Assembly (NCBI GenBank): GCA_001913845.2
Contig: MKGP02000056.1
Location: 1-64,000 of the forward strand
Source of the DNA: Limnothrix sp. CACIAM 69d
Lineage (GTDB): Bacteria > Cyanobacteriota > Cyanobacteriia > CACIAM-69d
Length of the DNA stretch: 64,000 nt
Direction: 5' to 3'
The notes under the pieces are model-generated. The model was not told the DNA's origin. It searched no databases and was given only the letters and a program-made list of their open reading frames with translations. Position numbers and translations under genes: made by a program. Positions 37,820 to 52,018 of this stretch are shown piece after piece; the first letter of the stretch is position 1; each line of letters starts with the position of its first letter.

Positions 37820-38215
37820 ACCGTGATTTAGCCCCTAGGACTCTGGAGGCTTGTCAACCAATGTGAGTGACCAGGGTTGGAGCGGTTGATTCTCTGAGCC
37901 TAACAGCCCCAGACAAGGGGCTTAAGCCCCTTGTCCCTACCATCTGGCGATAGCTTAAGCCCCTTGTCCCTACCATCTGGCGATAGCTTAAGCCCCTTGT
38001 CCCTACCATTTGGCGATAGGCAGTGGGATCAGAGTCCCTGGAATCTGATGCCAACTATTAAGGGCGATCGGGGAAATGGCGGAAAACCACCCTCCAGCGG
38101 GGCAATTCCCACCGCGTGCGCATCCCCAAATCCTTTCTAGAATTGAAGCAACGGCCGGTCTTCGGATTTCCAAACTCCAAACACCGATGCCGATTTCTTC
38201 TTTCGGTTTGGTGCT
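37820..38215. other. topA-htpX spacer with tandem repeats
   Basis: About 396 bp with no gene seen. It holds palindrome copy 4 and its 33-bp tandem expansion (37914-38019). The last 180 bp should carry the htpX promoter. Confidence 0.5.
37914..38019. repeat. 20-bp palindrome (copy 4) expanded as 3 x 33-bp tandem repeat
   Basis: The palindrome at 37914-37933 overlaps three consecutive 33-bp units (37921-37953, 37954-37986, 37987-38019). Each begins CTTAAGCCCCTTGTCCCTAC and ends GGCGATAG. Only one base differs in unit 3. Confidence 0.92.
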
Positions 38216-49748: not shown

Positions 49749-50333
49749 TCAAGGGCGGCCCATTTGGCGCTTCAGTTGCTCCAGTTCCTCATCCATTTCC
49801 CAGCGTTGGAACTGTTCCTCTAGGGGATCGGCTCCCATTCCGCTGCTGTAGGTAGCCCGATCGCCGCTGTCCCAGGGCGATCGGCTGGTGCGGGTCTTGG
49901 CTTGGGCCTGGGTTTGCGCATCGGCCTGGGCTGCCCGCGCGGCCACCTCTTGCCGTTTGCTGGCCAGTTGCGACACCAGGGTTTCTAACTGTTCAATGCG
50001 GGTTTTAATGCCCTGCATTTGTCCCCAAAGTTGATTGCCTTTGCGCAAGAGGGCGGCTTCTCGTTCGCGGGCGGCGGCGGCGAGTTGGTGCTCTCCGGCG
50101 GCTGCCACTTTTTCGATGCGAATATGCCAACGCTGCACGTCCTGGGCTGTTTCCCAAATGTCAGCTTTCAGTTGCTGTTCTTGGGTGTGCAATTCCCCGA
50201 TCGATCGCTTGGCATCGGCTTCCTGTTCCCGCAGTTGCTCTTCTAGGGCCCGCAACTCTAGCTCGGGATGTTCGCGCAGAAAGGCTTCCAGCCGGGCTTC
50301 TAAAAACTGACTGAGATCATCGAGCAAACTCAC
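49749..50333 (-). CDS. TIGR04376-type coiled-coil protein
   Basis: 194 residues from GTG 50333, with AAGGAG about 8 nt upstream. A short N-terminal motif (LLDDLSQFLEARLEAFLREHPELELRALE, residues 3-31) is followed by a nearly continuous coiled coil (about 27-135) and a conserved C-terminal PLEEQFQRWEMDEELEQLK. It matches a cyanobacteria-specific uncharacterised family. It is a soluble, probably elongated protein; function unknown. Its leader contains a CRISPR-like repeat whose 3' end lies 15 nt before the start codon, with the Shine-Dalgarno sequence between them. Confidence 0.82.
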   Translation of the reverse strand: MSLLDDLSQFLEARLEAFLREHPELELRALEEQLREQEADAKRSIGELHTQEQQLKADIWETAQDVQRWHIRIEKVAAAGEHQLAAAAREREAALLRKGNQLWGQMQGIKTRIEQLETLVSQLASKRQEVAARAAQADAQTQAQAKTRTSRSPWDSGDRATYSSGMGADPLEEQFQRWEMDEELEQLKRQMGRP

Positions 50334-50348
50334 GCGATCGCTCCTTGT

Positions 50349-50459
50349 GTTTCAATCCTCGCCCAGCCCGGGGGCCGGGCGCTGGGTTTTGACTTTTGGC
50401 TATAACGGCTCGCCGCTGGCGCTGTTTCAATCCTCGCCCAGTTCGGGGGCTGGTCGCTG
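50349..50459 (-). CRISPR. Two-repeat CRISPR remnant without cas genes
   Basis: Two 36-bp repeats (50349-50384 and 50424-50459) flank one 39-bp spacer (50385-50423). On the minus strand each repeat begins CAGCG, contains CTGGGCGAGG and ends in ATTGAAAC, the usual crRNA handle of type I/III repeats. The copies differ at about five positions, all in the left arm or loop of the internal hairpin. One change restores a C-G pair lost in the other copy, so the stem is kept. No cas gene is in the window. Confidence 0.75.
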
Positions 50460-50560
50460 CGAGCTGCATGACAAACCCTACCCGATCGCCCTTCCCGCCA
50501 AAACCCGGAGCGTGATCCCAAGGGGCGATCGACAGGGGCCGGCCAATGCGCAAGATTTTC

Positions 50561-52018
50561 TTACCCGATGCGTCTGGGGCGAGTCGATCGACGGGATTCA
50601 ATCGGGGTGTTTGGGGGTGGTTCAATTTCGTAGAGCACCTGGCCATTGCGAACCGCCACAAAGGACAGGGACAGGGGGCCGGCGGTGTAAATGTCGCGGG
50701 CTGCAATCACCCGCACCTCGACGGGTTGGGTTTGAGACTCCAGCCAGCGCACAAATTGGATCAGACCCGGCACATTTTCCACCCGGAAGCCATCGGCCGC
50801 GACTCCCGCTCGCTGGGCCCGAAACAGGGCTTGACCCAAGGCGAGTTCCAGGCGATCGCGCAGTTCCGGTTGCGACAGGCTGGAGGGGTCAAGGGAAGTC
50901 ACCGTCAGGGTTTCACGACGGGTAAAGAGAACTTGATTCAGCGCCACATCCAAAACGACGCGGATGGGCGGTTCTTCCCCGGTCAGATAGTTGGCCGTGG
51001 AAATCACCTTCACGTAATAGGCGCGACCGTCCCGCACTTGGGCGATCACCTGCTCCACTTCTCCCCGCGAGAGGGAAATGGCCTGCTGATTGGCTCCGAT
51101 GCCCGGCTGGGTGCGTTCGAGGGCAGCGCGGTTGGCGGCCACTAACAATCGCTCGATCGCCGCTTGGGTCATTTCGGGGGACGGAATCCGCAAAATGCCT
51201 GCCGCCAACACTTCCCCGCGCCGCAGGGCCACGTTGCCTTCCCGGAGGGCCTGGGATTCTTGCTCCAACCGCCGAACGGAAACTTCCAGGGACTGCAATT
51301 CCGACTGGGCCGATTGAAACCGCTGGTTGGCATCCTGCAACCGAGATTCCACGTCCTTGAGCCGTTGTTCCCGATCGCGGATTTGGGCGGTGCGATCGCG
51401 GTTTTGGGCAATCAGGGTTTGATTCTGGCGATCGAGGGCCGATCGCTCATCCAACAGGCGCGATCGATCTCCCTGAAGTTGGCGATTTTCTCCCCCCAGG
51501 CGTTGCAGGTCGCCTTGCAGGCTGCGTCGCTCGCCCTGGAGGGTTTTGATGTCGCCCAGCAGTTGTCGGGCCCGGCGGGAAACCTGGGTGAGTTGGGTTT
51601 TGGCGAGCCGAAATTGTTTGTCGGCCTGGAGCAAGCGCTTTTGGGCCAGATTGAGGCGGTTTTGGGTTTGGGCCTGCCGGGCCAAGGAGGCTTGCAGCGA
51701 TCGGTTGATTTGGCTCAGTTCAGCGCGGGCCTGATCCTGTTGGACACGGGCTTGATCCAACTCCCGCCGGGCCCGTCCCAGGCGCGTTTGGATTTCTTCG
51801 AGTTCAAAAATGCCTGCCAAGAACAACAGGCCCAAGGTGGAGGCGGAAATCAGGCTACCGGTCACGATCGTGACGAGGGTGGCCGTTTGGCGCGGTCGCA
51901 GGTTGAACAGGCTGAGGCGAGCTTTGCCCACGCGGGTGCCGAGCCGATCGCCCATGGTGGCAATCGCCCCACCTAACACCAAGGTGGCCAGCAAAATTAG
52001 TACATACCCGATCGTCAT
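50561..52018 (-). CDS. DUF3084 coiled-coil membrane protein
   Basis: 485 residues. Two N-terminal membrane segments (about 3-22 and 47-70), a long coiled coil rich in Arg/Gln/Leu (about 75-270), and a C-terminal alpha/beta domain (about 275-470, with GILRIPSPEMTQAA, GRAYYVKVISTANYLTGEEPPIRVVLDVALN and LSFVAVRNGQVLYE). It matches the cyanobacterial DUF3084 family, function unknown. Its topology would put the coiled coil on one side of the membrane as a scaffold. ATG 52018. It lies upstream of the CRISPR remnant on the same strand and 86 bp downstream of ntcA. Confidence 0.88.
   Translation of the reverse strand: MTIGYVLILLATLVLGGAIATMGDRLGTRVGKARLSLFNLRPRQTATLVTIVTGSLISASTLGLLFLAGIFELEEIQTRLGRARRELDQARVQQDQARAELSQINRSLQASLARQAQTQNRLNLAQKRLLQADKQFRLAKTQLTQVSRRARQLLGDIKTLQGERRSLQGDLQRLGGENRQLQGDRSRLLDERSALDRQNQTLIAQNRDRTAQIRDREQRLKDVESRLQDANQRFQSAQSELQSLEVSVRRLEQESQALREGNVALRRGEVLAAGILRIPSPEMTQAAIERLLVAANRAALERTQPGIGANQQAISLSRGEVEQVIAQVRDGRAYYVKVISTANYLTGEEPPIRVVLDVALNQVLFTRRETLTVTSLDPSSLSQPELRDRLELALGQALFRAQRAGVAADGFRVENVPGLIQFVRWLESQTQPVEVRVIAARDIYTAGPLSLSFVAVRNGQVLYEIEPPPNTPIESRRSTRPRRIG

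Follow-up and report, generated by a model that had tools for sequence, protein, structure and literature searches.

The two-repeat CRISPR locus ahead of a TIGR04376-family gene in the window, the whole 64,000-nucleotide stretch of DNA analyzed here, is probably the stub left on the gene side (trailer) when chromosomal rearrangement split a type I-C array. In a sister species, the same repeat builds a long array next to cas genes of type I-C, the window's own genome has no Cas5c, and every locus that carries the repeat in either species lies at a break in synteny. The stub is mostly an ordinary relic, with a history that is unusually clear.

The window is contig C50 of a 4.57-Mb genome (G000; 100 contigs, 99.99% complete). 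We compared this genome with two others of its genus, a sister species (G001) and a more distant genome (G002), and with three further genomes of the family (G003-G005). All of them are drafts; assemblers can be misled by CRISPR repeats, yet the junctions described below contain unique sequence. The features of the locus, in window coordinates, are as follows.

49749-50333, minus strand: TIGR04376-family coiled-coil gene of 194 aa that starts with GTG; it lies downstream of the stub
50334-50348, minus strand: 15-nt stretch ACAAGGAGCGATCGC from the repeat to the start codon, with the ribosome-binding site AAGGAG; read directly
50349-50385, minus strand: repeat copy 1, gene-proximal; 36/37 identical to the type I-C repeat of G001; 9-bp stem intact, then 11 nt AGGATTGAAAC
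50386-50423, minus strand: spacer, 38 nt; no convincing protospacer in phages, plasmids, viral contigs or the three genus genomes
50424-50460, minus strand: repeat copy 2, distal and degenerate; 4 substitutions relative to the consensus, 3/9 stem pairs lost
50385-50528, no strand: segment at a synteny break; the sequence to its left aligns with G001 C1 (50384 down to 38006) and that to its right with G001 C6 (50528-54157)
50561-52018, minus strand: DUF3084 gene, the upstream neighbor; adjoins the TIGR04376 gene in G000, whereas the two lie on different contigs in G001 and G002

A minimal CRISPR array ahead of a TIGR04376-family gene

An earlier note on this DNA had described an orphan two-repeat CRISPR ahead of a TIGR04376-type gene, and this description is correct. 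A CRISPR array consists of direct repeats of 23 to 47 nt separated by unique spacers of similar length, and the locus, with two 37-nt repeats around one 38-nt spacer, is the smallest possible example. Compared with each other, positions 50349-50384 and 50424-50459 of the window form direct repeats that disagree at 4 of 36 positions. The Rfam model CRISPR-DR9 (RF01322) matches both copies on the minus strand, which also carries the TIGR04376 gene (copy 1, 44.1 bits, E of 4.9e-9, slightly below the gathering score of 45; copy 2, 28.1 bits, E of 2.9e-4). No comparable repeat pair arose in 30 first-order Markov surrogates of the window, and the real window holds one other, a 33-bp tandem repeat near 37917. 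The repeat-spacer-repeat arrangement of the note is thus real, but its sizes need adjustment: the unit is 37 rather than 36 nt and the spacer 38 rather than 39 nt, since the printed spacers of the sister array all start with C and CRISPR-DR9 aligns positions 1 to 37 of 37. Over the full unit, the two copies differ at 5/37 positions.

The adjoining gene is a full-length member of the TIGR04376 family (226 bits), as had been supposed. The sequence also bears out that the ATTGAAAC end of copy 1 stands 15 nt ahead of the GTG at 50333 and that AAGGAG lies within this gap; the same 15 nt recur in G001 with one change. Because 15 nt is too short to hold a promoter comfortably, the TIGR04376 mRNA leader probably contains the repeat. 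A scan of 50250-50800 with promoter consensus sequences alone returned no match.

The consensus repeat is predicted to fold into a stem of 9 bp, after which come 11 nt, AGGAUUGAAAC; passages in PMC5965380 give the type I-C 5' handle this same length. All nine stem pairs are present in copy 1. In copy 2, one G-U pair has become A-U and three pairs are broken (A/G, C/A, and C/A), the predicted energy is -9.4 kcal/mol rather than -20.3, and the fold prediction gives another structure, so that the model retains the stable hairpin with its 11-nt handle in copy 1 only. The hairpin had been thought to survive the divergence through a pairing change in one arm. That change preserves a single pair, and with three of the nine pairs lost, the hairpin is not kept.

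The parent type I-C system in the sister species

In G001, an array of 34 repeats (C3:18945-21422), 27 of which are identical to copy 1 over 36 nt, adjoins the type I-C genes cas7c, cas8c, cas5c, and cas3. Its spacers measure 33 to 44 nt, a range that includes the window spacer, and its Cas5c can be matched across most of its length to type I-C Cas5 proteins of known structure. No Cas1 was found in G001. Among the six genomes compared, the repeat is carried by G000 and G001 only, being absent from G002 and from G003-G005. The repeat of the window is thus of type I-C, an identical one adjoining cas3-cas5c-cas8c-cas7c in G001. It resembles that of CRISPR-DR9 arrays in its sequence, its 37-nt length, its hairpin, and its ATTGAAAC end. 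The locus differs from such an array in having two repeats only, in its degenerate distal repeat, and in that no cas genes for the repeat were found in its genome.

The TIGR04376 gene of G001 is likewise preceded by repeats: an exact 37-nt copy, a different spacer of 47 nt, and then a repeat with bases deleted from within the 5' arm of its stem. The alignment of the two genomes runs at 97% identity through the TIGR04376 gene, takes in the exact 36-nt repeat, and ends at the last base of that repeat. This arrangement could be taken to mean that the repeat next to the gene has been retained as an element of the leader: in species that have Cas5c, a cut after the hairpin would leave the ribosome-binding site preceded by an 11-nt handle, and expression of TIGR04376 would come to depend on CRISPR expression. 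We consider this reading very improbable. It would explain why copy 1 is intact in both species (36/37 in G000 and 37/37 in G001) whereas the distal repeat has suffered damage in each, of a different kind; the mRNA probably includes the repeat, given the 15-nt gap, and G001 has Cas5c. However, G000 has no Cas5c, and the flanking DNA is about 93 to 97% identical between the two species, so that drift would account for a single change in 37 nt, and the conservation of copy 1 gives no evidence of selection. Nor does the repeat occur at any of 47 other TIGR04376 loci.

A wider association of the repeat with this gene family was rejected. No ATTGAAAC-type repeat pair stands upstream of the 47 other cyanobacterial TIGR04376 loci, one of which has an unrelated imperfect direct repeat, and the locus in G002 has no repeat. 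Regulation of TIGR04376 by the repeat is held unlikely in G000, a judgment made from sequence; in G001, where the gene-proximal repeat is exact, cutting of the leader by Cas5c is possible as a prediction. Should the repeat act in the leader at all, the predicted G+C-rich hairpin may have a structural effect.

Cas genes and repeats elsewhere in the window's genome

The absence of cas genes near the locus, to which the earlier note had pointed, was checked at the level of the genome. Our genome-wide search of G000 covered Cas5c, Cas1, and the Pfam Cas6 model PF10040. It gave no match to Cas5c, the pre-crRNA nuclease of a functional type I-C system, at an E of ≤0.001, and the sole Cas1 is a Cas4-Cas1 fusion on C34 that lies with MYXAN-type Cas3, Cas5, Cas6, Cas7, and Cas8. 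The repeat of that locus (L091:11-260 and L091:819-9791), GTGCTCAACGCCTTACGGCATCAGAGGTTTGGGCAC, is unrelated to the window repeat; at least four copies stand at the contig end. PF10040 matched nothing in the genus genomes, a negative that would mislead if taken alone because the MYXAN Cas6 is recognized by other models.

These results do not support the proposal that a trans-acting Cas6 processes the repeat. Passages in PMC8616872 and PMC5965380 describe Cas5d/Cas5c as the replacement for Cas6 in type I-C, the type of the parent system, and the Cas6 of G000 is of the MYXAN type and accompanies the unrelated repeat. Since Cas5c is absent, the repeat and spacer would do no immune work in G000.

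A 16-nt repeat pattern, searched in G000 with up to two mismatches, returned the two window copies with none and four scattered sites with two. Beyond these, the genome holds one long match, 29 nt identical to part of the repeat, at C10:106295-106323. Neither a related array nor a cognate nuclease was found in G000, which leaves, besides the 29-nt relic, the decayed remnant that the note had named as the other outcome of such a search.

Repeat loci lie at breaks in synteny

All three repeat loci in G001 and both in G000 are located at synteny breaks. The G001 loci join six flanks, which we letter for the sake of simplicity. On C3, repeats lie between flanks a (up to 6805) and c (from 7450), and the array with its cas genes lies between b (up to 18864) and f (from 28010); elsewhere, repeats lie between d (C1 up to 404056) and e, the TIGR04376 gene. 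The same flanks are paired otherwise in G000. There a and b are joined on C42 without a repeat, two bases separating both alignments, and c and d are joined on C11, again without a repeat. Flank e is joined to the DUF3084 gene via the window stub, and f is joined on C10 to another segment via the 29-nt relic. The relic adjoins the same flanking gene that borders the I-C genes in G001, and the stretch of C10 compared at this orthologous place contains no I-C gene match. The orientation of the repeat relative to e and f is the same in both genomes. The c|d adjacency is also present in G002, indicating that the arrangement of G001 at c and d is derived.

This pairing of flanks is what the splitting of a single e|array|f arrangement would leave. 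We infer that the common ancestor of G000 and G001 had one type I-C array between the TIGR04376 gene and the cas genes with flank f. Rearrangements with one breakpoint inside the array would have split it, with a|b and c|d also opened toward G001, and the array would have been cut again on the way to G000. There the stub would have remained with the TIGR04376 gene and gained the DUF3084 gene as its new neighbor; the cas side would have lost its cas genes and retained only the repeat relic on C10. The stub would now lack any immune function for want of Cas5c, and its remaining effect, if any, would be that of a hairpin in the TIGR04376 leader.

Several observations speak against a split array: only two genomes carry the repeat; the G000 partners of e and f are the DUF3084 gene and a segment absent from the G001 stretches compared, so that the rearrangement in G000 does not close; and the same comparison of G000 with G001 contains a repeat-free break at window position 38006, at the 33-bp tandem repeat. 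The intermediate e|array|f arrangement was seen in no genome compared. At window positions 37920-38018, three tandem copies of the 33-bp unit GCTTAAGCCCCTTGTCCCTACCATCTGGCGATA mark the left end of the stretch that is colinear with G001 C1.

In a different history, a separate type I-C array always stood ahead of the TIGR04376 gene, was served in trans by the cas genes, and decayed, the breaks being incidental. A remnant of two repeats and one spacer does stand at this place in G000 and G001 alike, with different spacers, and rearrangement breaks without repeats do occur, as at position 38006. We nevertheless consider a separate array unlikely, as all five repeat loci are at breaks and a, b, c, and d are joined to each other repeat-free in G000; we find it hard to credit that these four ends were paired by chance.

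A model of simple recombination, in which repeats stood at each end of a break, is disfavored, since the a|b and c|d junctions of G000 hold no repeat. Self-targeting was rejected as the cause of the breaks: when the 33 array spacers and 2 orphan spacers were compared with 421,615 bases of selected stretches, the longest match was 17 nt, a result that applies to those stretches rather than to whole genomes and excepts the matches of the orphans to themselves.

Targets of the spacer

The spacer check that the note had suggested, against phages, plasmids, and the host, yielded no convincing protospacer, and neither did viral contigs, G001, or G002. The best phage match of the window spacer extends over 27 nt at 85% identity, no phage record covers 80% of it, and the best plasmid matches cover 62 to 64%. 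G000, G001, and G002 contain no second copy of its 24-nt seed at up to three mismatches. No viral contig contains its first 22 nt. The 18-mer GGCTATAACGGCTCGCCG of the spacer recurs in fifteen viral contigs (L146-L160), mostly within a single conserved context. They were rejected as protospacers because the spacer matches no further than this 18-nt core, with 23 to 26 of 39 positions identical and the remainder unmatched. The G001 orphan spacer has one weak phage match (E of 0.3).

Comparison with known systems

Our literature searches found nothing on this locus. Orphan and degenerate arrays are well known; one is Enterococcus faecalis CRISPR2, which, like the window locus, has no adjacent cas genes. 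The window locus differs in that no cognate processing enzyme was found elsewhere in its genome and in that its parental locus is known in a sister species.

Solitary repeat units that mimic host repeats, including the type I-C RacrIC1, are described in parts of PMC10651486 as RNA anti-CRISPRs (Racr) and share with the window locus the occurrence of repeat copies outside an array. That the locus is a repeat of this kind left by a phage or another mobile element is scarcely credible. A Racr is borne by a phage or prophage, has a promoter just upstream, and usually consists of one repeat; the window locus is chromosomal, has two repeats with a spacer, and has no promoter match in the scan given above. 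Its examined neighbors, from which alone the prophage context was judged, are ordinary chromosomal genes, and no viral contig contains the first 23 nt of the repeat.

DeBoy et al. 2006 (cited alongside Mongodin 2005) reportedly placed CRISPR loci at chromosomal inversions in Thermotoga. Parts of PMC5637354 credit CRISPRs with large chromosomal recombination events in that genus, and the repeat loci studied here are likewise tied to large-scale rearrangement. A difference here is that the partner sites a|b and c|d are repeat-free in G000, so that recombination between end repeats is not the simple answer. A broader view of our data would make arrays recurrent chromosome break points in the genus, cut at least twice (toward G001 and toward G000), with repeats scattered into leaders and one of them in the TIGR04376 mRNA, under CRISPR control where Cas5c persists. 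Judged from sequence comparison, this is a doubtful proposition with little probability in our estimate. If arrays truly were favored break points, this would bear on gene-order change in cyanobacteria.

Under the preferred reading, a split type I-C array, the three related genomes show a route to an orphan mini-array that passes through rearrangement of an old array and subsequent loss of cas genes, rather than through the seeding of a new one. They also advise caution: a repeat ahead of a gene should not be read as regulation before the genome and its relatives have been checked.

Sequence around other copies of the repeat

On C3 of G001, the repeats between flanks a and c are two partial copies placed head to head (L038:6906-6975). 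They are bounded by a 566-codon open reading frame and a gene of 252 codons, and synteny with G000 breaks there. Neighboring repeats of the G001 array (L039:1982-2092 and 2422-2534) share rare variants, CACGG twice and TCCGG twice, which fit the copying of repeats at spacer acquisition, as expected, despite the fact that no Cas1 was found. Judged by eye, the 29-nt relic of G000 lies, within L002:1376-1690 on C10, between a hairpin-ended segment and one that has the inverted ends GAGAGGATGT. The hairpin ends presumably resemble those of IS200/IS605-type elements, and IS-like elements beside the relic may have helped to delete the cas genes.
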